From Urechis unicinctus (Eukaryota; Annelida; Polychaeta; Xenopneusta; Urechidae), in the NCBI GenBank assembly GCA_034190875.2, contig CM067350.1, positions 20,668,855 through 20,732,854 on the forward strand: DNA of 64,000 nt. The letters run 5' to 3'. The notes beneath the pieces were generated by a model, which did no database searches, was not told where the DNA came from, and worked only from the letters and a program-made list of their open reading frames with translations. Each line of letters opens with the position of its first letter. Position 1 is the first letter of the stretch. This document shows, piece after piece, positions 13,019 to 48,875 of the stretch. The position numbers and the translations under genes were made by a program.

Positions 13019-13062
13019 CTGGACGGTGTCTAGACGGTGTCTAGACGGTGTCTGGACGCTGT
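13019..13062. repeat. 11-bp minirepeat, long allele (copy 3)
   Basis: Same four-block arrangement as copy 2 at the equivalent position of the unit. Confidence 0.75.
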
Positions 13063-17971: not shown

Positions 17972-17999
17972 TCAAACAGAAAAAAATCAAAGATGTGTA

Positions 18000-20138: not shown

Positions 20139-21110
<972 letters not shown>

Positions 21111-23173: not shown

Positions 23174-23337
23174 TGTGGTGTATTTGTGTTTCGTATGCTG
23201 TTTGCAGATTGCACTTGTAAATCTCACTTTCACGCATATGCCCCGCGCTCACGTGTTGTTGACTGCCTCCATTTTGAATTAAAGTTTAGTATTAAATTAC
23301 CAGTGTTATTTGCCTTCACGCAACCAGAAACGCTACA
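23174..23337 (+). repeat. 5' LTR of Gypsy element 1
   Basis: Starts TGTGGTG directly after the genomic gagca and ends cgctaca, about 164 bp. The start is fixed by the repeat after the polypurine tracts at 27,137 and 30,690. The end is inferred from the primer-binding site, because no complete second LTR exists here. A possible poly(A) signal-like attaaa lies near 23,280. Confidence 0.75.
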
Positions 23338-23340
23338 AAT

Positions 23341-23357
23341 TGGCTGACGAGGATGTG
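23341..23357 (+). other. Probable primer-binding site (serine-tRNA-like)
   Basis: The sequence tggctgacgaggatg matches the complement of a metazoan tRNA-Ser(GCU) 3' end (tggcgacgaggatg) apart from one inserted t. That primer is typical of Mag-like Gypsy elements. It lies 3 bases after the LTR. Confidence 0.55.
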
Positions 23358-23487
23358 TGCTATTCTTTGCTAAAGTACCCGCTACCATTTCCCACGGATG
23401 TTGGACGCTGTCATCGCCTAGGTGAGCCCAGGATCGCCGATGATCCCAGCAGCAACGGTACCGTAGCAACTTCCCACTCATTTCAAA

Positions 23488-25587: not shown

Positions 25588-27006
25588 AGAGACAATTCTA
25601 GCCCTCTCAAGTCTCGACAACACTCCAGTTACGGCAAAACTGGTGGCTCAGTGGGTTGCCAAGGACCCCATACTCTCGCTTGTGGCCAAGTACTTGCGCG
25701 AAGGGTGGCCATCTGCCGCAGGAGAAGAGTTAGCGCCGTATTTTCATCGAAGAAATGAACTTTCAATCGAGCAAGGATGCATTTTGTGGGGATCCCGTGT
25801 CGTTATCCCACCCCCAGGCAGAGACACTATTCTTGCCGATCTCCATGAAACACACCCCGGAATAGTCCGGATGAAATCCCTTGCCAGAAGCTATATCTGG
25901 TGGCCCGGGATGGACAAAGAAATGAAGCTACCGTACGTTCGTGTCACTCTTGTCAGCAACAAGCTGTCAGCCCACCGAAAGGTAACCTACACCCTTGGGA
26001 GTGGCCGGGAAGGCCCTGGCACCGCCTCCACATTGACTACGCTGGGCCCGTGGAAGGCAAGATGCTGCTAGTAATCGTGGATGCACACAGCAAGTTCGTT
26101 GAGTGTCATATCGTGCCCTCTGCAAACTCCGCGAACACCATCATCAAGCTACTACAGACGTTTGCTACCCACGGTCTTCCTGCACAACTGGTCAGCGATA
26201 ATGGTACGCCCTTCACCAGCGAAGAATTTGCCCAGTTCTGCAGGAACAATGGCATAAAGCACATCCGCAGTGCGCCATACCATCCCGCCAGCAACGGTTT
26301 AGCAGAACGTGCAGTCCAAACCGTCAAGAACGGCTTGAGGAAAACAGTCGGTCCCAATCTCGAGACTCGCTTGTACCGTTTCCTCGCAACATATCGTCTC
26401 ACACCCCAGACAACTACTGGTGAATCACCCGCAGAGCTACTGCTTAAACGACGCCCGAGGTCTCGGCTTGACCTTCTGTGTCCTGACGTCCAAGGAAAGG
26501 TACTTGCCAAGCAAGCTAGTGGTCTCCGTGATCACGGCGATGAACGCTCGTTCATCTGTGGCGACGCTGTCTGGTCAATGAACTTTGCTGGCACCCCTAA
26601 ATGGTTACCAGGCGTGTTAGAGACTCAAACAGGCCCTGTTTCGTTCACGGTACGTCTGTCAGATGGACGCCTATGGAAGCGACACATCGATCACTTGCGT
26701 CAGCGACTGCCGCATGAGCCGCAACCCGAGCCGCTTGATACTGACGAACCAGTTGTTCAACTGCCGCTGCCGCGACCGGACGCCATAGGTCGACACATTG
26801 TTACAGAATCGTCTGCGAGCCGAGTTCCCGCAAACGCCAAGTCAGTTTCGCCTCCAGCTGCCCTAACGCCTCAACGGAACGTTAGCAATTCGGCAACACC
26901 ACCGCCATCTGAACATACCAGACCACCCGATGCTCGTATCACCACCACACCCCGCGAATCGACATCAGCCGCAACTCCCCCTACGACGATCATCACGTGT
27001 GATTAA
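25560..27006 (+). pseudogene. Gypsy integrase, element 1 (frameshifted)
   Basis: Begins with the linker after NADGLSRLP and runs through the zinc-binding H-H part, then shifts frame at about 25,922, where one base is missing compared with 29,500 in element 2 (gaaatgaag against gaaatcgaa). The remainder (25,923-27,006) reads on in a second frame with the D, D and E catalytic core and the proline-rich C-terminus. The end is shifted again by an extra c near 26,985. Element 2 keeps the same region open, so this copy is the damaged one. Confidence 0.85.
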
Positions 27007-27123
27007 ACCACCCGCTAGGTTAAACCTGTGAAATACTGTACAGGGTGTACGCCGAACGCTGCCCTTCTGTGTCTGTACTTTCTGAATTATAAAGACATTT
27101 TATGATTCGCCCCGCTCTAAGCT

Positions 27124-27136
27124 AAATGGGGAGGAA
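27124..27136 (+). other. Polypurine tract of element 1
   Basis: aaatggggaggaa immediately precedes TGTGGTG, as expected for plus-strand priming; the same tract occurs at 30,677-30,689. Confidence 0.8.
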
Positions 27137-27252
27137 TGTGGTGTATTTGTGTTTCGTATGCTGTTTGCAGATTGCACTTGTAAATCTCACTTTCACGCAT
27201 GCGCCCCGCGCTCACGTGTTGTTGACTGCCTCCATTTTGAATTAAAGTTTAG
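27137..27252 (+). repeat. Shared central LTR, 3' truncated
   Basis: Matches the first 116 bases of the 5' LTR with one or two changes, then jumps to the sequence equivalent to 23,607 of element 1. The last ~48 bp of the LTR, the primer site, the leader and the first ~40 gag codons of element 2 are therefore deleted. Confidence 0.85.
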
Positions 27253-29060
27253 CACAGACGACAACCGAAAACAGGCCATGTTACTGCACTACGGGGGAGA
27301 AGAGGTATTTGAGATTCATGAAGCACTGTCCGAGGGTTAAACGATCGACTCGTATACAAGCCTCACCGCGAAACTCCAGAATATTTTGCGCCAAAGCGAA
27401 ATGCCGAGTACGAGGATACCTGTTCCGACAGACGACACAACAGACTGGTGAGACGCTCGACAAGGATGCGCGATTACTGCAAATGTCGAAAAATTGTGAC
27501 TTTACTGATGCTGCCCGCGAGATAAAGTCTCAGTTATCCAGAAGTGTGTTTTATCGAAAATTCGCGATAAGGACTTCGTGAACCAAATCTATTGCTGTCC
27601 GACCTGCTACAGTATGGCCGTACACTCGAAGCGACCATGACCCAAGTGAAGTCCATGGGTGGATCGACCCACTGCCAGGCTACGCCTGTTATTGTGTCGA
27701 TGCTTGTCTCGGATTGTTCAAGCAACGTTTCAACAATCCGAAACCACATAAACGTGTGCCAAACCAGCCGTCTACGTCAACGGGCCAAGCCAAGACTTGC
27801 TGTCCTGGTTGTGGCAATGCAAAGGGTCACATGAATCGAGCCAAGCATTGCCCTGCCTTGGGGTAAGCAGTGCGGGAAATGCAGCAATTACAACCATTTC
27901 GCATCAGTGTGCCGTGGAGGTGCACCAGCCCCGCAGCGTCAATCACCTGCCGCTAACGCTCACGCCCGTACTCCTTTGTGCAAGATGCGTCAGCAGTTCT
28001 GGATAGTTCCGAGTACGCTGTGTTCACTGTCCAGTCTCGCTCACCGCGAGGTCCTTATGTGTGCGAGATCAAACTCAATGGTTTTCCGACCCATATGGAG
28101 ATAGACACTGGTGCCGCGCTCAGTCTCGTAAGTGCTCAGCAATACGATCGATTACCCCGTTCGGTACCACTCGACACACTCAACCTACCAAACCTGAAGA
28201 CATATTCAGGCGACGTGATCCAGCCATTGGGACGTTGTGTTGTGCATGTCGAACATGAAGGCCAGAATTATGATCTCCCTTTACTTGTCGTCCCCGGCGA
28301 TGGTCCAAACTTGCTTGGGAGAGATTGGCTGCAGTGTGTTAGGCTTAACTGGCCTCACCTCCACCGTGTAGAGGCTGCGCCATTCGGCAGTCTTCCTAAA
28401 CTCTACCCGCAGTTGTTCTCAAATAAACTTGGTTGTGTGAAAAACGCTCCGCGAAACTTGTCGTGGATGAGAATGCAACACCGCGATGCTACAAGCCGCG
28501 CCCCGTTCCCTACGCGCTCCAGCGAAGGTCGAAGCGGAGTTGGAACGTCTTCAGTCCGAAGGAGTCATCCGTCCTTTTGAATTTGCCGACTGGGCTGCGC
28601 CCATCGTTCCGGTGCTGAAGTCAAACGGTGACATCAGAATTTGTGGTGACTACAAGCTCACTGTGAACGCCGCCACGAAAGTCGACAAATATCCGATTCC
28701 GAACATCAAAGACTTGTACGCGAAACTTGCTGGTGTAAATACTACTCGAAACTCGACTTGAGTCACGCTTATCAACAGGTTCCACTTGATGAGGGATCCC
28801 AGAGACTCACCACCATCACTACCTCAAAAGGTCTATTGACCTATCGTCTGTGCTATGGTGTCTCGTCGGCTCCGGGAATCTTTCAGAGGATAATGGAGCA
28901 CTTCTTCAAGGGCAAGTCTACCTAGACGATCTCCGTGTCAGGCACGGCGATGAACGCCGCAATCTCCATGTAGTGCTGCAGAAGCGACGTCTGCTAAAAT
29001 TGGTCAATGAACGATATTGCCAGCGCCCGTATTCAGCGTTGGGCCCTGATTTTTAAACTA
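27253..29060 (+). pseudogene. Gypsy gag-protease-RT, element 2, broken by many small indels
   Basis: Aligns to 23,607-25,465 of element 1. Substitutions are few, but one- to several-base deletions are frequent (for example near 27,413, 27,570, 28,445, 28,521 and 28,735), plus larger losses in the RT palm at 28,895-29,010. The protease DTGA and the zinc knuckle can still be read in separate frames. The YLDD region is disrupted. No functional product is possible. Confidence 0.9.
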
Positions 29061-29218
29061 CCGCTACCACTTACGCTATCGCCCTGGTTCCCAGATAGCC
29101 AACGCAGACGGTCTCAGCAGACTACCCGTCAATACTGGTTTGACGTCCGTGCCAGTCCCTGAAGAGACAATTCTAGCCCTCTCAAGTCTCGACAACACTC
29201 CAGTTACGGCAAAAACTG

Positions 29219-30598
29219 GTGGCTCAGTGGGTTGCCAAGGACCCCATACTCTCGCTTGTGGCCAAGTACTTGCGCGAAGGGTGGCCATCTGCCGCAGGAG
29301 AAGAGTTAGCGCCGTATTTTCATCGAAGAAATGAACTTTCAATCGAGCAAGGATGCATTTTGTGGGGATCCCGTGTCGTTATCCCACCCCCAGGCAGAGA
29401 CACTATTCTTGCCGATCTCCATGAAACACACCCCGGAATAGTCCGGATGAAATCCCTTGCCAGAAGCTATATCTGGTGGCCCGGGATGGACAAAGAAATC
29501 GAAACTACCGTACGTTCGTGTCACTCTTGTCAGCAACAAGCTGTCAGCCCACCGAAAGGTAACCTACACCCTTGGGAGTGGCCGGGAAGGCCCTGGCACC
29601 GCCTCCATATTGACTACGCTGGGCCCGTGGAAGGCAAGATGCTGCTAGTAATCGTGGATGCACACAGCAAGTTCGTTGAGTGTCATATCGTGCCCTCTGC
29701 AAACTCCGCGAACACCATCATCAAGCTACTACAGACGTTTGCTACCCACGGTCTTCCTGCACAACTGGTCAGCGATAATGGTACGCCCTTCACCAGCGAA
29801 GAATTTGCTCAGTTCTGCAGGAACAATGGCATAAAGCACATCCGCAGTGCGCCATACCATCCCGCCAGCAACGGTTTAGCAGAACGTGCAGTCCAAACCG
29901 TCAAGAACGGCTTGAGGAAAACAGTCGGTCCCAATCTCGAGACTCGCTTGTACCGTTTCCTCGCAACATATCGTCTCACACCCCAGACAACTACTGGTGA
30001 ATCACCCGCAGAGCTACTGCTTAAACGACGCCCGAGGTCTCGGCTTGACCTTCTGTGTCCTGACGTCCAAGGAAAGGTACTTGCCAAGCAAGCTAGTGGT
30101 CTCCGTGATCACGGCGATGAACGCTCGTTCATCTGTGGCGACGCTGTCTGGTCAATGAACTTTGCAGGCACCCCTAAATGGTTACCAGGCGTGTTAGAGA
30201 CTCAAACAGGCCCTGTTTCGTTCACGGTACGACTGTCAGATGGACGCCTATGGAAGCGACACATCGATCACTTGCGTCAGAGACTGCCGCATGAGCCGCA
30301 ACCCGAGCCATTTGATACTGACGAACCAGTTGTTCAACTGCCGCTGCCGCGACCGGACGCCATAGGTAGACACATTGTTACAGAATCGTCTGCGAGCCGA
30401 GTTCCCGCAAACGCCAAGTCAGTTTCGCCTCCAGCTGCCCTAACGCCTCAACGGAACGTTAGCAATTCGGCAACACCACCGCCATCTGAACATACCAGAC
30501 CACCCGATACTCGTATCACCACCACACCCCGCAAATCGACATCAGCCGCAACTCCCCTACGACGATCATCACGTGTGATTAACCACCCGCTAGGTTAA
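29219..30598 (+). CDS. Gypsy integrase, element 2 (open 459-codon frame)
   Basis: The longest intact domain in the window, but not a complete gene: it lacks an ATG and opens after a one-base insertion near 29,215 that disconnects it from the upstream polyprotein. Numbering from 29,219: zinc-binding residues H68, H71, C101 and C104 (HETHPG ... RSCHSC), and catalytic D132 (HIDYAG), D186 (SDNGTPF) and E222 (LAERAV), the D-D-35-E spacing of retroviral-type integrases. A proline/threonine-rich C-terminal region follows, ending RRSSRVINHPLG, typical of Gypsy polyproteins. The enzyme family inserts element cDNA into the genome; here it could only be made by an unusual initiation. Confidence 0.85.
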   Translation: MAQWVAKDPILSLVAKYLREGWPSAAGEELAPYFHRRNELSIEQGCILWGSRVVIPPPGRDTILADLHETHPGIVRMKSLARSYIWWPGMDKEIETTVRSCHSCQQQAVSPPKGNLHPWEWPGRPWHRLHIDYAGPVEGKMLLVIVDAHSKFVECHIVPSANSANTIIKLLQTFATHGLPAQLVSDNGTPFTSEEFAQFCRNNGIKHIRSAPYHPASNGLAERAVQTVKNGLRKTVGPNLETRLYRFLATYRLTPQTTTGESPAELLLKRRPRSRLDLLCPDVQGKVLAKQASGLRDHGDERSFICGDAVWSMNFAGTPKWLPGVLETQTGPVSFTVRLSDGRLWKRHIDHLRQRLPHEPQPEPFDTDEPVVQLPLPRPDAIGRHIVTESSASRVPANAKSVSPPAALTPQRNVSNSATPPPSEHTRPPDTRITTTPRKSTSAATPLRRSSRVINHPLG

Positions 30599-30676
30599 AT
30601 TATAAATACTGTACAGGGTTACGCGAACGCTGCCCTTCTGTGTCTGTACTTTCTGTAAAGACATTTTATACTAACT

Positions 30677-30707
30677 AAATGGGGAGGAATGTGGTGTATT
30701 TGTGTTT
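30677..30707 (+). other. Polypurine tract and 18-bp LTR stub of element 2
   Basis: aaatggggaggaa followed by TGTGGTGTATTTGTGTTT, then host sequence. The 3' UTR just upstream (30,599-30,676) has lost several short blocks relative to 27,010-27,123. Confidence 0.8.
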
Positions 30708-31393
30708 GTATCTTTATGCACTTGTCTAAGGCGCTCCGACAATGTAAATCATTAGTTGCTGTTCAAAAAGCTCATCAACCATGGTATACCATTGAGCTTA
30801 GTCAGAATTTTAATGTTTTGGTATCAAAAACAGTTAATCTGAGTGAAGTGGGATGGTGTATCGTCTCGATATTTTACTGTATCAATTGGCGTTTGACAAG
30901 GTGGAATTTTATCCCCTAATTTATCTCATGTGTATGTCGATGATCTTTCAAATCATGCATCGGCTGTTATATTGATGATATTTTTACTAACCATGGATTT
31001 AATGCGGACGATCTATGGCTGATGTAACCTTGAGGAAATGGATTGCAAAAATGTCTTGACCTTTGTTCTCGATTCGGAGCTCAACATGATGAAGTGTTCA
31101 ATCCATCCAAATCCGTTTGCATTGTGTCTCAACCAAAGACCCGTTAACTGTTCTGTTCATAAGTATCGTCGAATGATATACAATTGCAGTATGTTGAAAA
31201 AATGGAAATATTTAGGTCTTATGGTAAATGCAAACAGTGTCGCAAGATTTCAAGCATATGTCGGAATATCGCATTTATGAAGTGGATAGAGCTGTCCAAT
31301 AACTTATTAATACAATCTTCGAATGATTGTTCTATAGTTGGGTCTGGTGCCATATGGACCCATTGGTACCGTATTTTATATGCACCGCATTGA
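30707..31393 (+). pseudogene. LINE reverse transcriptase fragment, 3' part (after Gypsy)
   Basis: Continuation of the fragment at 22,909. In shifting frames one can read a QGGILSP-type motif near 30,905, a degraded catalytic site NADDLWLM near 31,005 (YADDL in the family), KYLGLMVNAN near 31,207 and the C-terminal HWYRILY near 31,370. Stops and frameshifts throughout. Compared with the paralogue at 50,986-51,715, 41 bp at the Gypsy junction and 9 bp near 31,273 are missing. Confidence 0.75.
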
Positions 31394-31699
31394 ACGCTTA
31401 CTTAATGCATGTCTTGTATACTCTGTGACTGAAATCAACTATAATTATTATATCGAATAGCTTTAATACATATGTTGTGTACTCCATGCTTTTTTTTATT
31501 AATTACAGCATTGATAGATATAATACTTATTTCAGAGAGAGAAGAAAAACATAAAGCCCTTATAAAATCACCGTTTATTTCATACACCGACAACAAATAT
31601 AATCATGTAAATAGACACAATCACTCTCTATATTTCTGTTTGATCAAAAAGTAAACAGTCCTGAGAAAAGTCCTATATATCAATTTAAGTAAAGACCAC

Positions 31700-32040
31700 T
31701 AACTTAACAGTCCCATATAGTTCCATATGACCGCACGGTAATGGTACTAGACCGGAACCCTGGGGTTCGAAACGTTGGCGATTATATATACGCCCCAATG
31801 ACGCAACAAAATGGCCGTATTGAATAATACGGGGCCTACCTGTGTCTGAAAGTAGTGCATGTTCAACTGTTGGCCACGAGCTGCACGGGGCCCCTACGGG
31901 GCCAACAATCGTCACACAATCGTAAGGCCCCGCAAAGGGGAAACGCTGCACGCCGTGCTGCTGGGGCTCGCAGGGTTTAGGCCCGTATGGGGCGCATAGG
32001 GAGCCTGTAAACAGCCCGTCAGTCTCTTGAGACCTAGGCA
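31700..32040. repeat. GC-rich repeat with Pol III B-box-like word, block C end
   Basis: A GC-rich island with repeated ggggcccc/ggccccg words and the motif ctggggttcgaaac at 31,761, close to the tRNA/SINE B-box consensus GGTTCGANNC. About 20 bases upstream is ggtactagaccgg, which resembles a tRNA anticodon-arm relic. It might be a tRNA-derived SINE, but no clear A box or tail is visible. It is repeated at 52,025-52,368 and ends at the palindrome gtctcttgagac. Confidence 0.35.
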
Positions 32041-32745
32041 TCAGTATCTGAAATATTCGTGTTCATTTTTTTTGTGGCGAAGGTGATTAGTGCAGGTTAA
32101 TCAATTTTTTGATTAACTATTTTCTCACATCTCAAAGGCTAAACGTGATGTACTTTCGCGAAGCAAGTCAATTCATCTATCTTTTTCATTGACAAACATT
32201 CAGGTTATTGACACGATTCATTCGTAGAAATACACGATCGTCTTCCATAATGGTCAGCCATGTTCAATGTAATTGATTCAGCAAACGAACGATGTACTCA
32301 TATCTAATCATATTTGTATTGTGAGAACATCTTATCTCAAACTTTTATACTCTAAACACAACAATCACAACCTTAAAACTTTAATTAGCCCAGGTATTCT
32401 ACTTGTGTAGTAGTAAGTCTATTGATTGAGAGACAATTGCATAGCTGATCTCTCGAAGCGATGAACTGGTATCAATAAAAGAACGACGCAGGGTGCTGTT
32501 GGTTGACTGGGGCTAAGCGGCTGGCAATGGCGCTGCGCCCGCATGTAGTGGCGTCTGGCGTTGGGGATTTCCATTTTGGCTGCTGGAAAAAAGTGGTGCC
32601 TTGTGTGAGGTTGCCAAAGGTAGTCATAAAGAATTGTAGCCTCTTATAAAGGTCACAAGATATATTGTCAGTGTGCTAACAAGCCGTCACTCTCCCGTTT
32701 GAGCAGTGGACAGCCGCGAACGGTGTAGACACCTTTACCTATGGT

Positions 32746-35127: not shown

Positions 35128-37928
35128 ATGTTTTGGTAGGTTCCAGCAAATGTGTGTTAATTCATCGGGTTTACTAACTTGACATATAAAAATAAATTGA
35201 TGTACCGCTGCAGGATGTCGTCACATGAAGTGATAAATTCTTTAAAATCAAACCTGGTCGTTGTTATTGAGTTAAATACTGTAACTTCTTATTCAACAAT
35301 CCAATAATCAAATTATCTGTGCACTTCTCTTGTGTCCCATGTTCTTTGGAGCCATCGCATGCCGTGTGCCACGTCACCGGATAATGACACAGCTTTATTC
35401 TCACCAATGGGCCTTGACAATAAAAACGGTCTTAACAAAACCTATCTACAACCTCAATGTTGTACTCCAATATCAATGATCCAATCAATGATGCCCGACG
35501 CTCATTAATATAATGTGCTTGAAAAATGGGAGGCAATGAGATTAATTTCTCAAATTGAAAACAATATGCAGGGATGGGTGCTTTGGTGGACTGCCATATC
35601 GAAACACGCGTCGGAAATACATCGAGAAATTACCTTTATATTCTTACTTCCAACAAATGATACTTTTGCTCGGCTTGTGACGTATAATGTTTGTTAAACA
35701 CTGTACCGCATGTTTTCAGGCGTTATTTACATATGTCAGTGCCCGTTATGTGCTTGTACAGTTAACCTGAGTAAATCAGATTGCATTTGCTCATTATTAA
35801 GTCCGACAGAATGTGTATGTGAACGGGGCATCAGTTTAGGGTTTGTCATGATTAAAACCACGAAGTCGATCTATATCGCAAATATGGCATAATGTTAGGA
35901 GACAATGAAGACACGAAGTGCGAACTATGGTAGCTTAAATTACATCGTGCAGGAGCGATTTTCAGAATTGCAAAGTCAGTATAATTATGCGTTAAGGTGA
36001 GGATGTTGTAGACTGGCCCCGAGAATCTCACATCCACAAATAACTGTGCATGTCCCCGTGACTATCCGGGTCAATAGTTATTTTCTATGGATCATAACCC
36101 AAAACTCTATACAGTATGTAAAACAACACCGCAGTCACAATAAATACCTCCTAAGCACTTTGTGTATCTACGACATAACGGTATTTCCATTCCTACCAAA
36201 TACCTATACCTTATTATTGTATCTAATAAATGAGTTGCGGTCAGGGTTCTGTAGACTCACCTTAAGTTATTGTATCTGCTGGGTTAGGAATCAATTGATA
36301 TGGCCTTCTTTTTAAATGAGCCTCATATTCATGTGGTAAGTTAAATGGACCGCTGTCATATTCATGATCCGCACACAATAAAGACGCATGACGATTGAAG
36401 GAGTAATGAGTCGAGAATTTGGGAGTTTATAGCTGTGCTAAGGGGTTTCACCTAAAGCTCCTCCCGGGGACATGTGTAAAGTCGCCATCTGGGAGCAGCG
36501 TGTTGCTTTATTAAAGCATCATTAAATACTACATGGAATTCTCTGATTTATTCGGGATCTCCTCGACCTATCAGATGACTCCATATCTTTACTGTCTCCG
36601 AGCCCCTAGATGTCAGATCAGCAGTCCGATGTGCTTTTGTTGACTTCATGGTATCGTCGTCTAATGGCGGGCGTGTATTGCATCTAGTTTCATAATCACC
36701 ACACCGCTTGTCGGAGTGAGCCCTGTAGGTGTAGATATACACTCCATCGTGTTATCCCAAAACAATAACAAAGTATTGTTTCCATCTCAAAAAGGCCCCT
36801 TCGAATATTTATATGTTTCCTGGTAGCCACATTAAAATGGACTAAACGCCAGATCACAAATATTATATAGATGTGCAAAATATGTAACAATGTTGGCATA
36901 GTCTTATTGCTATGGAATTTAACTCTCTCATGCCTTACCGATTGACCGCCTTCCAATAATGATAACATGATTTGAATGTCCATCCTGCCGTCATCTTCCA
37001 ATAGCCCCGAATGACAATGTAACAAAGTCTATTCTGCTGTGTATATCGCGGATGGTGCACTTATTGATAGAAGGCCATAAATATATAAAGCGATTATTCA
37101 TGTTTACCACACGTCTGACATTAGAACACTATACCACATAAAATGTGTCCTTTCTGCACCTTACATTGTTGTTATGCACATAAGTTGAAAGATAATATTT
37201 TGGGCACAAAGGGCTTTGCTCATTTTTTCTATACACATGTTTTCATTCATGGCTATATCAGAGAGTCTTAAGTGGCACTATATTTCAGCTAACATATAAA
37301 TAGGCAATTATACAAGGTATCCTATAACACTGCATTTTCCAAATTTAAAAGCGTTTGAGACAAAAGACGCAACGCTTTAATCCATATGGGCTCTCTAAGG
37401 TAATCCACCTGAAATATTGCCCATTATGTGCGGGTCTTACAGAAAGGTAAATTGTCGTTATGGGCGTTATCATAGTAGGTTTATAATCCCATGTGGTCAG
37501 TTAATTCAAGTTCTAACTGATATTCATACCATTTCATTATTAACCTTTATTATGAATACTGTCCTATGAACCTCAGGCCCGTAGCCAGGGGGGTTCGAGG
37601 GGTTCGAACGAACCGCCTACTTTGCCCAGAAAGGTCAGCCTTACTCTAGCGCATTTGTGTATATGTAGATATATCATGTGTCGATGGTGCCTTTAATAAT
37701 GGTCTTATAGCGCATCAGTATGAGCCAGGAGATATGTCCACTATTGAGGGGAAAAGAACTCCCCCCCCCCTCCCCACTTAAAATCCTGGCTACGGTCCTG
37801 AACCTCCTTTATCTATACTCTGGAGTCAGTTTACAGGCAACAATTGTGTGATATTGCCTAGCAACATCAAATCAATCCAATGTTGGTACTGTGTGTGGAA
37901 GAACTAATATCATAAATACGACCTTCTT
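35128..37928. repeat. 2.8-kb segment absent from unit 1, with a diverged second A-type copy
   Basis: Located where unit 1 reads straight from block A to tail (20,138/20,139). Its right part is a diverged direct copy of block A: 37,250-37,560 aligns with 34,243-34,550 and 19,300-19,560, and 37,900-37,928 with the end of A. This suggests unequal exchange between related units rather than a simple transposition. 36,545-36,790 and 37,400-37,530 reappear inverted at 53,280-53,640. 35,128-36,540 has nothing that I recognise. Confidence 0.7.
37574..37800. mobile_element. 227-bp MITE-like element with CAGG...CCTG terminal inverted repeats
   Basis: Terminal repeats are caggcccgtagccagg at the left and, reversed, caggaccgtagccagg at the right (one mismatch). 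A five-base duplication aacct flanks it (37,569-37,573 and 37,801-37,805). The related block A sequence at 19,551-19,565 shows the unoccupied site with a single aacct. There is no coding capacity. A run of ten c residues lies near the right end. The superfamily is not assigned. Confidence 0.85.
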
Positions 37929-38774: not shown

Positions 38775-38865
<91 letters not shown>

Positions 38866-38872
38866 ATATTTA
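38775..38872. repeat. (AT)n microsatellite 2 (left half of split array)
   Basis: About 98 bp of TA repeats with two ttta interruptions at the right. Bounded on the right by the inverted repeat at 38,873. Confidence 0.95.
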
Positions 38873-39140
38873 TACAAGTCCGACCATTTTGGTACAATTC
38901 ACCAACCATCTTGGCCCATACTTACATTTTGGCCGATGATCATGGGGCCAAAATAGTCAGCGTCATCCCATAGGCTTACACAGCTGCGCTTCCCCCAAAA
39001 AATCGTAACTTTATTTGCTTCTACTCCTCCTAAGGTTGGAATCTTATTATTCGGGATAACTATCCACTTTTTTTCTTGGCGTTAAATGCATTTGCCTGAA
39101 TTTACATTTTGGCCTAAACGACCATTTTGGCCATGTTGAA
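38873..39140. repeat. Left terminal region with ACCATTTTGG-type motifs
   Basis: Motif words are at 38,883, 38,906 (accatcttgg), 38,927 (acattttggcc), 39,104 (acattttggcc) and 39,119 (accattttggcc), plus one reversed (ggccaaaatag, 38,945). Confidence 0.65.
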
Positions 39141-41529
39141 TAATCGGTCATTATATGGCTTTGTTCGATGTATATTTGCTCCAAACTTATATTCATGATT
39201 TGTGTGACTTTTAACTTCAATGAACAATTCTTTGTTTTAAATTATCGCTTGAAATGAAAAAACATACAAATTTTGAATGAATATATAAATCAGCAGATTA
39301 AAGAATAACGGGCGGCACACGCTCAAATATCTTTACGGAAGGATATAAAAAAAATGGCGATTGTACTGGGAAATCCGTGGTTGTAAGTCTTTGTCAACTC
39401 ATTTTGGGTGTTTTTTTCTCAGTACATATCCGTCTGATAATGTTTAATTTAGATAAATAAGAACAAATGTAGTTCTTAAGCTGGGAATTCTAGAAGCAGA
39501 TCAACATTTAAAATGTTTTGAGAATCTCACTGAAATGAAATACCGGTTTTTTCGATCTATGATGTGTAAAGTTTCGAGTAATCAATGAAAGCATATTGTA
39601 TCAACGGACTGTTTTTATCAAGTGATTAATTAAAAAGATTGTTCTGTGTTATCAGTTTGCTCGTGTCGTAAAATCCAAATGTTCCCACTAACGCACCCGC
39701 GGGCTCAAGCTGAGGTATATTTTGGGATTGTAACTATTCCAGCCTGCCATACCTCGTGGAATTTCCGGTACACGAGCGAACATAAACAAGACGATCGGTC
39801 AGCCATGACAATTTTACACGCAGTTTCCATGTGATTCTCGCTCGGTCAGTATGATTCTAACGTTTATAGATTGAATATCATTCATGTAACAATGAACGTT
39901 ATTGTTGCGGAAAGAAATTTCATGTACGACAAATTACGAAATACCCGTAGTTTACAGTGGTTAGCGAGCTTCACCGGGCAGTTCCGCACGTGGGCTCTAC
40001 CGTTTCACACTCACACTTTCCGATCACGAACACCATTCCAAGGGCCAACAATACCCAGATACCATGTTAATGTGACTAGATGCCTGCAGGGTTGGATAGA
40101 TCTATCGATTACCAATGATTTTTTTTTAAATGTATTTCCTTACGTTCATTAAACCGTATCGACTATTGCCTACGGCTTTTGCTGTCATCTGTCAGATGTA
40201 AACATTGCCTAATCGGTAATCCGCTCCGGTATCACAATAACCCAAACAGACTTCAGACTTTATGCCCTGTAACTAACAATGTTGTATGGTGGACTATGAC
40301 ACTAGCCACCCCTAGCCTAGTGTCATAGTACACCATATAAGTTATAACTACTCTGGTGGTAGTGCGTTAGTGGGGTGGGGTTACTCTTTCAATGTTTTTT
40401 CAAAGGTTGAAGATTGATAATTTGCTCTCAACATTCTTGAATAATATACTTACTTGCATCAGTAATGTGACCTTTAACCTACCTTCTAGTACTTTTATTG
40501 GACATGGAAATAGCATGATCTGCTAATATTATGTATCATTGTAATACACTAAAACATGAATTCTTTATTACATTCCTATAAGTTTGATTATGTGTTATAT
40601 GATAGTCACAACTTTTGTTATCAATAAGTCAGGATAATGATCCTATCTGTATCTCAATAATAGCTATCCAAAACAAACTGTGCTAGTTTTTTTAGCTGCC
40701 AGCCAAGTTCAACAGTGGCTTGCCAAATAATTAGAACCTAGGTGGGTTTTTGAAGTCCAGAGCCTCTTTTGTCAGGGTATCTGCCACATCAATATTGGTA
40801 GTAAAATTGTTGTCAAATGTTCAATGTTCAATAGTACAATCACATCATTTGAATATGTCATGCATAAGCTATAAATGCCATGGTCATCTGTCAGTTAGTC
40901 TTAAACGCTGTGCATCTGATCTAGTGTTGATAGGGGTATTAAGCATATCTGAAATCCCAAATCACACATGACACAGTACAGTTTTGCCCTGTCAATCTGT
41001 CTGCTTGTAAACGTTTGGTGTCACATTTTCTTAATAATGCAAGTCACTCATATATTGATTGTGACATTATTGAAAAAACATTTCTTAGCTATGTTAACCA
41101 AATAGGGAATACCTGTCTCAAATTAAACATGAACCACTCTTATATTGATTATCGCTTACAAAGTAAATATCAGCGCTGCATGACCTTTTGTTCCTGAGTG
41201 ATTTACTCAATGGGGAATAATTCTTGATGGCACGTTTTCTTATAATGCAAGCTTGCAACTTCACATTGACCAAATCTTGCAAACTTTAACTCATAGCTTT
41301 ATGGCTCTTGACCTCTGACTTGCTAAATAAAAGCAAATTAAAATTGCTTGTTCCAGGAAAATGTAGCTAAGTTATTATTATTATTATTATCTACATTACT
41401 GACAGTAATGTAGATGAAGCCACATGACCTACTCACTATTCTACATAATGAGTTGCATGTGCAATATTAAGGTCCATGTGCTTAACCACCATGAAAACAA
41501 ATTTTATGTTAATGGTAAATTCACAACTT
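39141..41529. other. Interior left part of the insert, no gene recognised
   Basis: AT-rich DNA, not repeated elsewhere in the window. Frames of up to 93 codons (39,871-40,152) have no recognisable motif. 41,020-41,260 has a loose internal repetition (ttttcttaataatgcaag and ttttcttataatgcaagc about 215 bp apart). Confidence 0.4.
40284..40338. repeat. 24-bp-arm hairpin
   Basis: Left arm 40,284-40,307 and right arm 40,315-40,338 pair at 21 of 24 positions, around a 7-base loop. The core is ctatgacacta/tagtgtcatag. It could be a relic of a small foldback element; no target duplication is evident. Confidence 0.8.
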
Positions 41530-44500
41530 CGTCAATATTGTGGTTTCATCAGTTTTGTGGCTTTACAATATTGTGGCTTCACCAATATTGTGGCTTCACA
41601 AATACTGTGGCTTCAATAATATTGTGGCTTCATCAATATTGTAGTTTTACCAATGTTGTGACTTAACCAGTGTTGTGGCTTTACCAATATTGAGGCTTCA
41701 CAAATACTGTGGCATCACCAATGTTGAAGCTTCACTAGTGTTGTGTTTTCACCAATGTTGTGGCTTCACCAATTCTGTGGCTTCATCAATATTTTGGCTT
41801 CACCAGTGTTGTGGCTTCACCAGTGTTGTGGCTTTACCAATATTGAGGCTTCACAAATACTGTGGCATCACCAATGTTGTGGCTTCACCAGTGTTGTGTT
41901 TTCACCAATGTTGTGGCTTCACCAATACTGTGGCTTCATCTATATTTTGGCTTCACCAATGTTGTGGCTTCACCAGTGTTGTGGCTTTACCCTTATTGTG
42001 GGCTTTACTGTGGCAAATACTGTGGCTTCACCAGTGTTGTGTTTTCACTAATGTTGTTGCTTCACCAATACTGTGGCTTCATTAATATTTCGGCTTCAAC
42101 ATTGTTGCGGCTTCTATAGTGTTGTGGATTTAATGATATTGTGGCTTCATCAATATTGTGACTTCACCAATATTGTGGCTTTACCAATATTGTTGCTTTA
42201 AAAAAACTGTGGCATCACCAATGCTATGGCTTCATAACATTTTAGCTTCAACATTGTTGTGGCCTCACCAGTGTTATGGATTCAATGATATTGTGGCTTC
42301 ATCAATATTGTGACATAAATATTGTGGCTTCACCAATACTTTGGCTTCACCAAATGTTGTGGCTTCATTAATACTGTGGCTTCACCAATATTGTGACTTC
42401 ATCAATATTGTGGCTTTATACATCTGTGGCTTTTCCAATACTGTGGCATCATCAATATCGTGACTTAACCAATATTGTGGCTTCACCAATACTGTGGCTT
42501 CATCAATTTCTTGACTTCAACAGTGTTGTGGCTTCACCAGTGTTGTGGCTTCACCATTGTTGCGGCTTCACCAGTGTTGTGGATTCAATGATAATGTGGC
42601 TTCATCAATATTGTGACATCAATATTGTGGCTTCACCAATACTGTGGCTTCACCAATGTTGTGGCTTCACCAATACTTTGGCTTCACCAATATTGTGGCT
42701 TCACTAATACTTTGGCTTCACCAATATTGTGGCTTCATCAATATTGTGGCTTTACCAATTCTGTGGCTTCTCCAATACTGTAGCTTCATCAATATTTTGG
42801 CTTCACCAATGTTGTGGCTTCACCAGTGTTGTGGCCTTACCAATATTGAGGCTTCACAAATACTGTGGCTTCACCAATATTTGTGGCTTCACAAGTGTTG
42901 TGGCTTTACCAATATTGTGGCTTTACCAATATTGTGGCTTCACAAATAATGTGGCATCACCAAAGTTGTGGCTTCACCATGTTGTGTTTTCACCAATGTT
43001 GTGGCTTCACCAATACTGTGGCTTCATCTATATTTTGGCTTCACCAATGTTGTGGCTTCACCAGTGTTGTGGCTTTACCCTTATTGTGGCTTTGCAAATA
43101 CTGTGGCTTCACCAGTGTTGTGTTTTCACTAATGTTGTTGCTTCACCAATACTGTGGCTTCATTAATATTTCGGCTTCAACATTGTTGCGGCTTCTATAG
43201 TGTTGTGGATTTAATGATATTGTGGCTTCATCAATATTGTGACTTCACCAATATTGTGGCTTTACCAATATTGTTGCTTTAAAAAAACTGTGGCATCACC
43301 AATGCTATGGCTTCATAACATTTTAGCTTCAACATTGTTGTGGCCTCACCAGTGTTATGGATTCAATGATATTGTGGCTTCATCAATATTGTGACATAAA
43401 TATTGTGGCTTCACCAATACTTTGGCTTCACCAAATGTTGTGGCTTCATTAATACTGTGGCTTCACCAATATTGTGACTTCATCAATATTGTGGCTTTTA
43501 CACATCTGTGGCTTTTCCAATACTGTGGCATCATCAATATCGTGACTTAACCAATATTGTGGCTTCACCAATACTGTGGCTTCATCAATTTCTTGACTTC
43601 AACAGTGTTGTGGCTTCACCAGTGTTGTGGCTTCACCATTGTTGCGGCTTCACCAGTGTTGTGGATTCAATGATAATGTGGCTTCATCAATATTGTGACA
43701 TCAATATTGTGGCTTCACCAATACTGTGGCTTCACCAATGTTGTGGCTTCACCAATACTTTGGCTTCACCAATATTGTGGCTTCACTAATACTTTGGCTT
43801 CACCAATATTGTGGCTTCATCAATATTGTGGCTTTACCAATTCTGTGGCTTCTCCAATACTGTAGCTTCATCAATATTTTGGCTTCACCAATGTTGTGGC
43901 TTCACCAGTGTTGTGGCCTTACCAATATTGAGGCTTCACAAATACTGTGGCTTCACCAATATTGTGGCTTCACAAGTGTTGTGGCTTTACCAATATTGTG
44001 GCTTTACCAATATTGTGGCTTCACAAATAATGTGGCATCACCAAAGTTGTGGCTCTACCAGTGTTTTGTTTTAACCAATGTTGTGACTTCAACAATATTT
44101 TAGCTTCAATATTGTTGTGGCCTCACCAGTGTTGTGGATTCAATGATATTGTGGCTTCATCAATATTGTGGCTTCACCAATGTTGTGGCTTCACTAATAC
44201 TGTGGCTTCATCAATATTGTGGCCTTTACCTATACTGTGGCTTCTCCAATACTGTGGCTTCATCAATATTTGGCTTCATAAGTGTTGAGGAGTTACCCAT
44301 GTTGTGGCTTCATCAATATTTTGACTTCATCAATATTGTGGCTTCACCCATTCTTTGGCTTCATCAATATTTTGACTTCATCAGTATTGTGGCTTCATCA
44401 ATACTGTTCCTTTTCCAATAATGTGGCTTCATCAATATTTTGGCTTCACCAGTGTTGTGGTTTCACCAATATTGTGGCTTCATCAATTTTGTGACTTCAC

Positions 44501-44851
44501 CAATTTTGTGGCTTCACCAGTGTTGTGGCTTCATCAATATTTTGGCTTCACCAATGTTGTAGCTTCATCAATGTTATCCCTTCATCCAAATTTTGGCTTC
44601 ACCAATGTTGTCGCGTCACCAGTGTTGTGGCTTTACCAATATTTTGGCATTACCAGTGGCTTCACCAATATTGTGGCTTCAGCAATATTAAAACTTCATC
44701 AATATTGTGGCTTCACCAATATTGTGGCTTCAACAATACTGTGGCTTCACCAATATTGTGGCTTCACCAATACTGTGGCTTCACCAATTTCGTGACTTCG
44801 TCAATGTTGTGGCTTCATCAATGTTGTGGCTTCATCAAGGTTTTGGCTTCT
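41530..44851. repeat. 3.3-kb minisatellite, 17-bp unit (CAATATTGTGGCTTCAC)
   Basis: About 190 tandem, slightly degenerate 17-bp units; variable positions are CACC/CATC and AATATTG/AATGTTG/AGTGTTG/AATACTG. Three units make 51 bp, so each frame repeats a 17-residue pattern such as LWLHQYCGFTNIVASPI. The long apparent open frames (up to 145 codons) are explained by this and not by a gene. A higher-order repeat is embedded: 42,013-43,093 recurs at 43,094-44,045 with the same series of variants (period about 1,081 bp). Confidence 0.95.
42013..44045. repeat. Higher-order duplication inside the minisatellite (~1,081-bp period)
   Basis: Rare variants recur at the same order and spacing: gcaaatactgtgg at 42,013 and 43,094; aaaaaactgtggc at about 42,201 and 43,282; catctgtggcttttcc at 42,421 and 43,503. 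Similarity extends leftwards to about 41,860/42,948 with a period near 1,088, the difference being a few bases around 42,000. Confidence 0.9.
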
Positions 44852-45164
44852 CTTGTTTATCATATTCCGTTGAGATATATCAATCACTGTGGCTTAAAAA
44901 GACATATTATGTCTAAATGTAATTTTTGTTAAAACCATCAGAATGACCAAAATGACCGAAACAATGAGTATTATCTGTATTTGTTGTGTGTGGGGTATGG
45001 CTTCAACAATCTGTTAATGTAGAAGTTTTTTATCAGAAGTTCTGTTTACCCAGTATGATTGTTAAGCTCCACCTGGTCCTAATTGATGGTCTTGCAGTTA
45101 TGATGTATGCACCTGTGTATAGTGTCTCATTGTTGTACACTTAATCTGCTCTGTATTTATCGCC

Positions 45165-45270
45165 AGCCCAGCATGACACAGACCTGGGGTTCTTTTTATT
45201 ACAAGCCAGTCGTTACACTGACCTGGGGTTCTTGTCACCAGCCCAGTATGTCACCGACCTGGGGTTCTCC
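45165..45270. repeat. Short tandem repeat of a 35-40 bp unit
   Basis: Three copies of gacctggggttct at 45,181, 45,219 and 45,255, with partly repeated linkers (ccagcccagtatg). Confidence 0.7.
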
Positions 45271-45326
45271 TAACATGGCATCATTTTTGTTTGGAGGGGT
45301 AGTTTTTCTTGAGGCCAGTTAACATG

Positions 45327-45375
45327 TAAAATGGCCACCCGTCACCAGGACAGGTCAGGACGGGTGGCCATTTTA
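45327..45375. repeat. Perfect 17-bp-arm hairpin
   Basis: Arms taaaatggccacccgtc (45,327-45,343) and its exact reverse complement (45,359-45,375), with a 15-base loop. Confidence 0.9.
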
Positions 45376-46854
45376 GTTAAGTTCCAGCCCTGTTACTGAT
45401 GACTGAACTAAGCTCTCTGGGCTGTAGACTTATTCTGAACATCTGGCTTTGTCACATAATCAACTCCAGATGAACATCAGATATGTATGTCCTCATATTC
45501 ACTATATACTGATTTTCAGATGTGTACAATTGTAAATGTAACCTCGGGTTAAGGGTGGAGAGAGCTGGCTTATGTGGATGAGACACCATTTTATTAAGTG
45601 ACAGAAGGAAGTGCACCATAGCCAACCCAGGGGAGCAGTCAAGCATTGAATTCGAGTATATTTATCAATGCTAAGCTCCATAGCAACCTTCCTGGTGGTC
45701 ACTAGTCAATGCCTGTTATCTGGATACCCAGAAAGAGAATGTTAAAGTTGCCATCAGTGGTCAATGAATGAAGGTAACATTAATTATTGATGGGTGGGCG
45801 GTTTTTGTTATTGGTTATATAATTGCAGTGCATATTGATAATATCAGGCTTACGATGTGTTTTACCAATATTCTATTAGTTTATATTCAAATGTAGATTC
45901 AGTTTCTGCCACACAGAGGGATTAGTTTTTACTTCCTTTACTTAATTACAAGAGATTGATTCATGTGACATGTTGTATTGATATTCAACCTTATCAGGTT
46001 GGTAAGAATTAATGTTGTGTAATGTTTTACATAGACTTCCTTTTGTTCTTATGATATAAGACTGATTGGCAGTTTGACAAGTTAACTTAGTGTGTGTAAC
46101 AGAATGTGCAACTATAGCTGGGGCACAGCAGGAGAATCATCTTTAGCTGAATCATATGGACAAGCTGTTGTATGGATTCACTAATTGTGTCCTAATGGAA
46201 ACCCACCAAGACTGGCCCTATTGAAAGTTTATTACTGATAGTGCAACATAAGACGCTGTTGTCAAAGTTCCTGCTGATCATGTTCAAATTTACCTGTAGA
46301 TATGCTTTGCTTGATAATGATATCCTTATAATTGATTTCCTTATATTGTTAACCCTTATGAGGTCAATACATTCAGTCCATTAAGTCAATTTATTCAGCT
46401 GAATCAACGCTATGTGATGCTGCCTCCACTGGTCCGTGTCATTCAGTGTATAGCTAGCTGGCTGATCAGAACTTCACAGAAGCCTGTCAACGCGACCGAT
46501 TTGGGAAACACCCAAATAGCTTCAGTCGAAAGTCATTTTCTCTCAAATTACCATATCTTATTCACCTTTCATTTACTATAAATGAACACTTCTTTCATTT
46601 AATTGGAACTGATTTAAGATTACACCTTGTTGTTTTGTTGCACCAAATTTAAGCGGATTTTGCAACTTTGGCCATGTGCGGCAAAACTGTCGCCATGTCG
46701 CACGAAGATAAATACACCCTCCATGGCAGACATGTTTGACGCAATGCTAACATAACATCTCTGCAATAGTTCACGGAGCGCATGCGATTTGACCCGGTTG
46801 TAACCTCTGACCGGGCGATAACAAGCAGCGCGCGTCAAACATAAACAAACAAGA

Positions 46855-46893
46855 ATGGTCAACATGAATGGAGCTTATCGGGGAAGCTCGGAA
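46855..46893 (+). other. Possible first coding exon with splice donor
   Basis: A CpG-containing stretch (46,640-46,850) precedes two ATGs (46,855 and 46,864). The short open frame then meets GTAAGC at 46,894, a good donor match. No protein family can be recognised from so few codons. Very tentative. Confidence 0.2.
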
Positions 46894-47073
46894 GTAAGCT
46901 GTGTTTACTGTCCACAAAGGCCGCATTTTGATGTCTTTGATTATGAACTTTCTTTACTTAATACGCTGCAGTTATTTCGGTTATATAACCAAGGCCCTGC
47001 AGTCACAAGTATTAAATTTGGGCAAATCTTATTCTAACATTAGCAGTCCAAGTTTTTTTGGTTGTGTGTCTTT

Positions 47074-47373
47074 TTATTTTTTTCCATAAAACATGTGAAC
47101 TCCCATCGGAGGGCTGGGGGGAGCAGCAAATCTGGGAGCAAATGGTATATCAGGCTTTTCCCATACCCCGTTGGTAGATAAGTTTCCAAAGAACAACTTC
47201 TCCAAACACTCTCGCTGCTTGTCTGTCATTTCCAATCCCGGCGTGTAACTTTCTATTTCTTTTTTCAGTCGATTTTCGTTAACAAATTCGTCTTCACATC
47301 TGACTGCCGCCAATTTTAGAAACGCTTGACGGCCATGAAACGTCCGCGGAACTACTTTTTTTCGATAAATGCC
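47074..47373 (-). other. Exon-like open frame, unidentified
   Basis: Open on the minus strand for about 100 codons between a stop at 47,374 and TAA at 47,074. Composition is protein-like (charged helix NENRLKKEIES, then MTDKQRECLEKLFF, then a proline-rich end APRFAAPPSPPMG). There is no ATG near the start, so it would be an internal or terminal exon, or a gene fragment. A possible acceptor (ttttatag) lies at about 47,390. A run of seven T (plus strand) at 47,356-47,362 separates it from another protein-like frame; one base more would join them, suggesting either decay or a homopolymer error. No family recognised. Confidence 0.3.
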
Positions 47374-47496
47374 TCATAATGGGCCTATAAAAAGTTTTTC
47401 ATAACAAAATGATTATTATTATTCTAATCACACACAACAGAAAATGTTTTTGTAATATTTAACAGATGACATTCCGTAATAATATTTCGTCGCGTA

Positions 47497-47868
47497 ATGG
47501 CCCGAATTTGGCCCAAAGCGATCAGAGTATTGCAGAGGCGAATCCCAGCCTGCGCAGAAGCCGATGCGCAGGAGATCGAGATAAATAGTGACAGCTGTTT
47601 GGACTCTCCCGATTCAAGGGACGAGGGATGTTGTCCAACATCGTTGACAGACAGATTACAGTGTTCAGAGTGGTTAAATAACATTAATCTGCCCAGAGCA
47701 ATCGAAATGTATAATAGTTACAGCAATTACTTCAATGATGGCAGTTTAATTATCCATGAATCAGAATATAAATACTTTAAAATATATGACCTACGAGCAT
47801 TTTTGACTTGGAATCGTCCGTGCTCCAATATTAGAGACGACAATCTTCAGAATGTTAGGTATCACTAA
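47497..47868 (+). CDS. Hypothetical 123-residue protein
   Basis: ATG at 47,497, stop after 123 codons. The first half is rich in charged residues and cysteine, the second contains EWLNNINLPRAIEMY, faintly like the start of a SAM-type domain but too weak to claim. It runs opposite to the neighbouring exon-like frames and overlaps a minus-strand frame, so it may be chance. No splice or promoter evidence. Confidence 0.25.
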   Translation: MARIWPKAIRVLQRRIPACAEADAQEIEINSDSCLDSPDSRDEGCCPTSLTDRLQCSEWLNNINLPRAIEMYNSYSNYFNDGSLIIHESEYKYFKIYDLRAFLTWNRPCSNIRDDNLQNVRYH

Positions 47869-47913
47869 TTCTTGTTAAAACTCGCAGTACCTAAGTATAA
47901 ACTTGTAACCAAA

Positions 47914-48201
47914 TTAATAACGAGTACGTTGAAGAACTCCCTTCCTTAAAATAGGTGACTTTAATGCATATTTTCTCCGTTCGACCGGTACACCTGCCGC
48001 TCGGCAAGGTTCGGAACTTTTCGGAGCAAGACATTGCGTCAGCATTTCGTGGAATCGCGCCGATAATTTAACTTCACTTTTTTCTTCATGGCTCGTTGAA
48101 TATTGTGAATGTACAGTTCGAATTATGTTTAAACAATGAGAAATCGAAAAAAGTTTCTTTCGGTTCCCGAAAGACCTAAAAACGCGCAATACTTTGTGCA
48201 A
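47914..48201 (-). other. Exon-like open frame with basic N-terminal part, unidentified
   Basis: 95 codons on the minus strand without an ATG at its start. The beginning is basic and aromatic (KVLRVFRSFGNRKKLF), resembling a mitochondrial presequence. The end is also basic (RRKYALKSPILRKGVLQR). A possible acceptor (ttttag) precedes ggtctttcgg inside the frame. It may be a captured or decayed exon. Confidence 0.25.
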
Positions 48202-48404
48202 GCTTGTTTGTAGGAATTAAATTTAAGTCGTTTATGGTTTCATTGACCTAAGCTTTTTCATTGACTAAGCTTTGTAACCCTAGGTTGTATAAACGATGGT
48301 CTGTCAGTAGTAGGTTGGTTGGGATAATAAATGTTAGTAATATCGGAAGGCAAAAAGGGCTGGTCGGCTCATTTGTTTATTCTAATCGCCAATATGGGTA
48401 GATA

Positions 48405-48714
48405 TGTAAAATGGTCAAAATGGTTGGTTATATAAAAAGGCCAAAATGGTTGGTTTTATAAAGAAATTCCAAAATGGTTGGTTTTTTGCATGACAAAACT
48501 ATCATGACTATTTTGGTACAACCATTTTGGCCTAGGATTTTTATAATCTTCTAAAATAAGTTATGAATGAAGATATTAACTGAAAGCTGTACAAGGCAGA
48601 TGTATAATGTTTTGCATCCGTGATATCACATAATTTGAGCTCCAAAAAGCGAAATAATCGAATGACCCAAAATGGTCGGTTTTGTCGATATTGTCCAAAA
48701 TGGTTGCAATTGTA
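48405..48714. repeat. Right terminal region with CCAAAATGGT-type motifs
   Basis: ccaaaatggttggtt occurs at 48,442 and 48,470 with a partial copy near 48,416; inverted forms lie at 48,513 and 48,525. cccaaaatggtcggtt is at 48,666 and the terminal ccaaaatggttgcaatt at 48,695. Orientation is mostly opposite to the left end. Confidence 0.65.

Positions 48715-48875
<161 letters not shown>

Follow-up and report, generated by a model that had tools for sequence, protein, structure and literature searches.

An insert of 9.84 kb that splits a (TA)n microsatellite in the genome of the annelid Urechis unicinctus is best explained as one copy of a multicopy, recently spread and apparently non-autonomous DNA transposon of ~9 kb that lodges in TA repeats. 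The insert lies in a stretch of 64,000 nucleotides, hereafter the window (assembly GCA_034190875.2, contig CM067350.1, positions 20,668,855 to 20,732,854 of the forward strand), to which coordinates refer unless another copy is named. To this reading, which includes a transposase that would act in trans and a probable methylation of the element's core, we assign a probability of about 0.88. The element and the arrays that it is compared with are as follows.

38869 to 48716, plus strand: the element, one copy of a family with ~500 occurrences of its ends (genome searches, conserved junction letters)
38775 to 38874, no strand: (TA)n target array, left half, in unit 2 of a tandem duplication
48717 to 48875, no strand: (TA)n target array, right half, in unit 2
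20986 to 21107, no strand: unbroken (TA)n, the unoccupied paralogous site, in unit 1

The window contains a tandem duplication (unit 1, ~17098 to 32041; unit 2, ~32040 to 52369), the aligned parts of which differ at 131 of 7261 bases (1.8%). Both flanks of the insert align to unit 1 in the same order, with 1.6 to 2.0% mismatches, and unit 1 provides a single unoccupied site. The array lengths are 100 and 159 bp beside the window copy and 122 bp (~61 TA units) in the element-free unit 1. The initial annotation had described the array as unbroken in unit 1 and split around the insert in unit 2, and had placed 20-bp terminal inverted repeats (TIRs) with 17 matches at the borders of the segment; both descriptions were confirmed. 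The features of the ends are listed below.

38873 to 38892, plus strand: left TIR, TACAAGTCCGACCATTTTGG (alignment of ends)
48695 to 48714, minus strand: right TIR, TACAATTGCAACCATTTTGG, 17 of 20 identical to the left (alignment of ends)
38883 to 39131, plus strand: left subterminal cluster of ACCATTTTGG-type words (word search)
48413 to 48704, minus strand: right subterminal cluster of ACCATTTTGG-type words, mostly inverted (word search)

Among 19,604 pairs of window positions drawn at random, not one reached an identity of 17 of 20. The conserved ends extend slightly past the TIRs (left, ..TTTATACAAG; right, ..TTGTRAG), and the letters at the junctions are fixed, with ATTTATACAAG at 14 of 16 left ends and TTGTAAG or TTGTGAG at 27 of 29 right ends. 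Eleven of the window's 20 ACCATTTTGG words (at most one mismatch) fall within the 661 terminal bases. These words had been noted as lying in opposite orientation at the two ends, which holds for eight of the 11 and fails for three (38948, minus; 48507, plus; 48521, plus). Across copies, the subterminal words are less variable than the rest of the same ends (11 of 3518 cells changed versus 125 of 12,941; p = 5e-5), a conservation that would fit sites at which a protein provided in trans binds. The exact left TIR had no match in viral contigs.

Both ends are abundant in the genome. Counting by pattern with at most two mismatches over 1.19 Gb yielded 520 left and 483 right ends, while the backward patterns used as controls yielded 2 and 0, respectively. 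When the left 528 bases were used as a query, 912 first-look candidates were obtained, and the best 40, which were scored, all matched along their entire length at 98 to 100% identity. With the right 430 bases as the query, there were 773 first-look candidates and 41 scored matches, 40 of which were full or nearly full length at 98 to 100% identity; one comprised 184 bases at 89%. Pairing was assessed for the perfect ends on six contigs, C1 to C6 (82 left, 83 right; distance of at most 25 kb). A perfect, correctly oriented right end accompanied 44 of the 82 left ends, at a span of 5,473 to 18,780 bases (median, ~9.2 kb), and 26 of these 44 pairs span 8.4 to 9.7 kb. Partners within 25 kb lay on the wrong side in four cases and on the other strand in three.

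Sixteen copies, chosen among the best-scoring left ends, were also fetched as 10-kb stretches (copies are referred to below by their numbers, e.g., L010). The right end lies inside the stretch in nine of them, at 8.58 to 9.47 kb, and was located by coordinates at 10.57 kb in L015 and at ~10.1 kb in L014, so that 11 of the 16 are paired. The expectation, set beforehand, that paired ends would occur elsewhere in the genome was thus satisfied by both samples. L024 runs beyond the fetched stretch, 2,299 N lie within L019, the right end of L011 is truncated, with TA repeats after it, and L022 is a rearranged copy. L016 carries a nested long terminal repeat (LTR) retrotransposon at its positions 2958 to 6896, with 580-bp repeats that are 99.8% identical and a gag domain. 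Over 1 kb of the left arm, 17 copies differ by a mean of 1.6% (range, 0.3 to 2.7%), and over 1.2 kb of the core, 13 copies differ by a mean of 1.9%. As this divergence is about that of the two local units, the compared copies appear to have spread recently on the genome's own scale.

The flanks of these copies consist of TA repeats. In a strict test over 40 bases of flank, which 57 of 9138 40-mers of the window pass as background, the left flanks of all 16 fetched copies and 24 of 29 right flanks were classed as (TA)n; the right-flank set includes L015 and L017 under the numbers L034 and L035. Of the right flanks that failed, those of L029, L032, and L049 are below the cut-off yet TA rich, and L048 and L054 have altered ends adjoining TA repeats. 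No copy outside TA repeats was encountered among those read. In each of L018, L040, and L050, a single TA array holds two element ends, oriented alike or oppositely; these are chains of elements that share a target. Together with the inverted ends and the paired copies, these flanks uphold the proposed architecture of a large DNA transposon targeting TA repeats.

The interior, too, is shared by the family copies examined. Its principal features in the window copy are a minisatellite and two gaps.

41527 to 44852, no strand: 17-bp minisatellite (repeat analysis), ~2.0 to 3.9 kb in 16 other copies
41380 to 41389, no strand: gap in the window copy relative to ~640 bp held by 15 of 16 others (copy alignment)
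46406 to 46408, no strand: gap in the window copy relative to ~605 bp held by 13 of 16 others (copy alignment)

The minisatellite consists of ~196 units with a second-order repeat of ~1.09 kb; its exact unit had no match in viral contigs. It is present in all 16 fetched copies, which have the same interior throughout, and at least part of the core lies on both of its sides in 16 of 16, although only partially in L011, L016, L018, L019, and L022. The three copies without the ~605-bp segment fall short of the place or are rearranged. Since both the minisatellite and parts of the core recur in every fetched copy, the interior is not captured DNA that the window copy alone possesses. The initial annotation had considered a non-autonomous giant element with captured DNA. 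The large size, the apparent non-autonomy, and the 3.3-kb minisatellite all stand, the last as a family feature, while a private capture by the window copy does not; a capture may have occurred when the family arose. Copies with the same ends and different interiors, which had also been anticipated, were not found among the 16 beyond insertions, deletions, and the rearranged L022. The idea that the window copy itself had captured methylated host DNA was likewise dropped, as the same core is found in other copies.

When the window copy was translated in six frames, with X at stops and the minisatellite removed, a single Pfam row at E of at most 1 was obtained (FhbB, 0.26, below the cut-off). 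The ten single open frames of the insert gave three rows (E of 0.09 to 0.2, all below the cut-off), and the six frames of L010 outside the minisatellite gave no domain above the cut-off. These results agree with the initial annotation, in which no transposase was recognisable, and the family is called non-autonomous because none was recognised in the copies examined. The 18.8-kb paired copy was considered as a possible autonomous element, but the 5 kb of it that were read consist of the known core, followed by N. Scans of the insert with Rfam and for tRNAs gave no result.

Frames of at least 110 codons outside the minisatellite were compared across the 16 copies. One recurrent frame, of 115 to 126 codons, spans the point where the minisatellite ends and is present in five of the 16. 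Another, of 125 to 132 codons, occupies one place in the right arm of L009 (its positions 8445 to 8825), L012, L017, L018, and L020, with nearly identical residues; in other copies, comparison with L009 shows a gap of one base inside it. The L009 version had no Pfam match, and the window version, which is partly different and begins in a repeat nested in the right arm, had no homologue in the protein database (two candidates, none scored). Runs of N account for the long frames of L019, and the long frame of L016 is the gag of its nested retrotransposon.

The CpG content divides the element into three parts.

38875 to 40232, no strand: left arm, CpG observed/expected ratio (o/e) of 1.16 (18 aligned rows)
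40233 to 46488, no strand: CpG-starved core, CpG o/e of 0.144 (0.202 without the minisatellite)
46489 to 48716, no strand: right arm, CpG o/e of 1.10 (1.04 for 46407 to 48714 without the nested repeat)

This arrangement of CpG-normal arms around a CpG-starved core, which goes beyond the initial annotation, is common to the family copies tested. Change points were located at 40233 (interval, 40224 to 40265) and 46488 (46355 to 46644), with a likelihood gain of 84 on a coarse grid that exceeded all of 50 permutations (maximum, 11). Without the minisatellite, the gain was 41.5, compared with a maximum of 9.8 in 100 permutations. The core has an excess of TpG and CpA. Outside the insert, only one of 529 segments (600 bases each) had a CpG o/e below 0.5 (0.497). 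In the four other copies tested (L009, L010, L020, and L023), two narrow borders (41 to 166 bases) were found at corresponding places. CpG was low beside the minisatellite in all 16 copies, more weakly so before it in L018 (0.52) and after it in L022 (0.72).

The loss of CpG seems to be continuing faster in the core than in the arms. In a test restricted to changes seen in one copy only, C>T or G>A changes at CpG affected 8 of 404 cells (16 sites) in the core and 31 of 5875 in the arms (Fisher p = 0.003), whereas changes at other C/G sites did not differ between the two (44 of 15,510 versus 85 of 22,523; p = 0.13). A count that also took in shared changes gave, for the core (1.2 kb), 25 changed CpG dinucleotides among 135 and, for the left arm (1 kb), 16 among 659. 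Methylated CpG is lost through mutation, according to an excerpt of an earlier report (PMC8857923), and germline methylation of the core is therefore a reasonable reading of the base composition, although few sites lie behind it.

In the mechanism that these observations suggest, a transposase encoded elsewhere would bind the repeated ACCATTTTGG words and pair the two ends, and the element would then have been inserted into a pre-existing (TA)n array. Germline DNA methylation would cover the core and spare both arms; if so, each copy would carry its own CpG pattern with it.

Several points weigh against this interpretation. No transposase was recognised in six frames of either the window copy or L010, and the right-arm frame of 125 to 132 codons could be either an exon or a frame that arose by chance. 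As many as 38 of the 82 perfect left ends on C1 to C6 lack a perfect right partner within 25 kb; this count leaves aside imperfect ends and other contigs, so that pairs and short derivatives with altered ends can be missed. The copies studied were drawn from the best-scoring 40 of each search. The single unoccupied site, that of unit 1, may be what an excision left behind, and TA repeats on both sides of the copies read make a target duplication impossible to measure. The test of the subterminal words uses the words of the window copy, with no correction for base or CpG content. Finally, the test for continuing CpG loss draws on 16 sites, with eight changes in all, and the corresponding count is 0 of 272 in the ~605-bp segment, which lies near the right border of the core.

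The alternative that survives best concerns the origin of the core and is compatible with the explanation given above. A shorter element could have captured 6 to 7 kb of methylated host DNA, such as an intron or gene body, after which the composite spread, as in Pack-TIRs. The sharp left border of the core (an interval of ~40 bases), the borders of 41 to 166 bases in L010, L009, L020, and L023, and the lack of a recognisable gene in the core are all in keeping with such an origin, and animal TIR elements are known to capture DNA (excerpt of PMC8277862). However, no core-less relative was found with the two arms joined as a query, for which only the right half was matched in the best 40 of 1412 candidates. 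Nor was a source locus found; the core query returned 41 rows among 1095 candidates, 40 of them family-like at 95 to 100%, and a weaker source could for this reason be hidden. Methylating the core alone could also create a CpG contrast within one element, and young transposons are described as methylation targets in cnidarians in part of another report (PMC8857917). We consider this origin possible, with the balance tipping against it.

More speculatively, and in our judgement improbable, the family could be a full-length, gene-less 9-kb unit in TA microsatellites that imposes its own methylation map and needs its core and minisatellite in cis. The core would then be, for example, a transcribed non-coding domain, and such a need in cis would explain why there are no short derivatives among the perfect-ended pairs.

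Slightly less probable still is that the TA repeats are brought in or lengthened by the element, as is described for maize TAFT, with the long arrays following insertion. The two arrays beside the window copy (100 and 159 bp versus 122 bp in unit 1) could be taken in this sense. In excerpts of the literature, expansion after insertion is reported in maize (PMC5907723), as are averages of 15 TA repeats per flank at occupied sites versus nine at empty ones (PMC4486113). On the other hand, unit 1 holds ~61 TA units without an element, the pure TA runs at the left end range widely, from 8 to 152 bp among 16 copies, and the shared arrays in L018, L040, and L050 suit the repeated use of an existing target.

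Spread without any transposase, in which circles or broken ends would join (TA)n by homology or template switching and the inverted ends would be a relic, is very unlikely. It would be in line with the presence of (TA)n at both ends of the copies examined and with the lack of a transposase in them, but the inverted ends, the conserved subterminal words, and the fixed junction letters (14 of 16 and 27 of 29) point to recognition of the ends. An assembly join or local duplication artefact can be dismissed for the element, as many contigs carry copies with both ends and the same interior, even though long TA arrays are hard to assemble; the two units, only 1.8% apart, could be haplotypes set side by side by the assembly, which would turn the paralogue into an allele and leave the element unaffected.

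Among known systems, compared here on the basis of excerpts of the cited reports, the closest precedents for the transposon proposed above appear to be the plant Mutator-like elements (MULEs) of TA microsatellites. MuTAnT and the Micron and SaTar groups occupy TA repeats, are short for the most part, and in several cases have been linked to MULEs (PMC4486113, PMC5907723); the Urechis family shares with them the insertion into (TA)n. MuTAnT of Medicago comprises 218 copies, 90% of them at 200 to 300 bp, and a putative autonomous copy of 4.87 kb with a mudrA-like gene (PMC4486113). The Urechis family resembles it in its insertion mainly into (TA)n, its hundreds of copies, which are mostly non-autonomous, its inverted ends, its recent activity, and a target duplication that is hard to read within TA repeats. 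Unlike MuTAnT, it is ~9 kb long and has no known partner and no measurable 9-bp duplication. Micron and rSaTar of rice and gSaTar of guayule likewise combine a microsatellite target with non-autonomy and chains of elements sharing an array; in contrast to the Urechis family, they are plant elements of 0.38 to 1.9 kb in the available part of the size table, and the guayule elements show 10-bp duplications at non-microsatellite sites (PMC5907723). With a length ~5 to 30 times the sizes of the non-autonomous MuTAnT, Micron, and SaTar elements, the Urechis family is assigned to no superfamily.

Animal systems show partial likeness. Pack-TIRs are TIR elements with a long non-transposon interior, as the Urechis element would be if its core was captured, but they are mostly single copy, in contrast to the ~500 of each end counted here, and mostly belong to hAT or Tc/mariner (excerpt of PMC8277862). 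ISL2EU/PHIS elements share a short, AT-rich target, whereas their TIRs usually start with GG and the Urechis ends, TACAAG and TACAAT, begin with TACAA or CAA (excerpt of PMC4482050). Neither a DDE/THAP nor a YqaJ gene of the ISL2EU/PHIS type was recognised in the Urechis element. As judged by titles and the openings of abstracts, no animal TA-microsatellite family of such size was noticed in the literature.

Miniature inverted-repeat transposable elements (MITEs) are short, usually below ~1 kb, and non-autonomous DNA transposons at hundreds of copies are normally short as well. The Urechis family is unusual because widely spread elements without genes are normally short; it has ~500 copies of its ends, a length of ~9 kb, and no short members among the 44 perfect-ended pairs on C1 to C6, which all measure 5.5 to 18.8 kb. 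In the reports cited here, TA-microsatellite targeting is described for plant MULEs; the family offers a further system with many natural insertions. The CpG contrast within one element present at many sites could also serve as a direct test of whether methylation follows the sequence or the place of insertion.

The right arm of the window copy contains a second mobile element.

~46715 to 47578, no strand: high-copy repeat of 864 bp nested in the element; its minus strand has decayed helicase-like frames (genome search, copy alignment)
46706 to 46714, no strand: 9-bp target duplication AGATAAATA, left of the nested repeat (window versus L010)
47579 to 47587, no strand: 9-bp target duplication AGATAAATA, right of the nested repeat (window versus L010)

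The presence of AGATAAATA on both sides and the unoccupied site in L010 indicate that this repeat jumped into the window copy. Its 864 bp are unmatched in the 16 fetched copies, and the site is unoccupied in all 13 that reach the place; L016, L019, and L022 do not. Genome-wide, 1730 first-look candidates were obtained, and the best 40, which were scored, are 98 to 100% identical. No inverted ends were found in the first and last 40 bases. Two minus-strand frames contain LFFGN and, four bases on in the other frame, LPTGYGKS (from 47177), motifs of a type found in none of 40 simulated windows. We take these frames to resemble the start of an SF2/RecQ-like helicase, although there was no database match: Pfam and the PDB sequences gave none, and the 25 and two candidates from the protein database were not scored. 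A helicase exon captured by the transposon was considered and dropped, because the 864 bp constitute an independent repeat flanked by a 9-bp duplication of its own. The exon-like frames previously noted in the insert do exist, but those with helicase motifs belong to the nested repeat and are absent from the 13 copies that reach the place.

Three strong hairpins lie in the core, at 40282 to 40340, 41389 to 41415, and 45327 to 45375, with plus-strand z-scores of -4.5, -6.1, and -7.6, respectively. Elsewhere in the tandem duplication, unit 2 alone carries a 2.8-kb insertion (35128 to 37923), for which the flanking matches overlap by 6 bp; there is no exact inverted match of at least 8 bp between its ends. 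Unit 1 alone carries a Ty3/gypsy-type retrotransposon (23175 to 30706) with reverse transcriptase and integrase domains, which is internally duplicated, and ~40 bp are missing at the counterpart of this site in unit 2. Positions 1 to 16600 of the window form a tandem array of ~6.05-kb units, in which copies 1 and 2 differ by 1.9% and the third matches both at ~84 to 94%. Units 1 and 2, the gypsy duplicates, and the first two of these 6-kb units all differ by ~1.6 to 2.0%.

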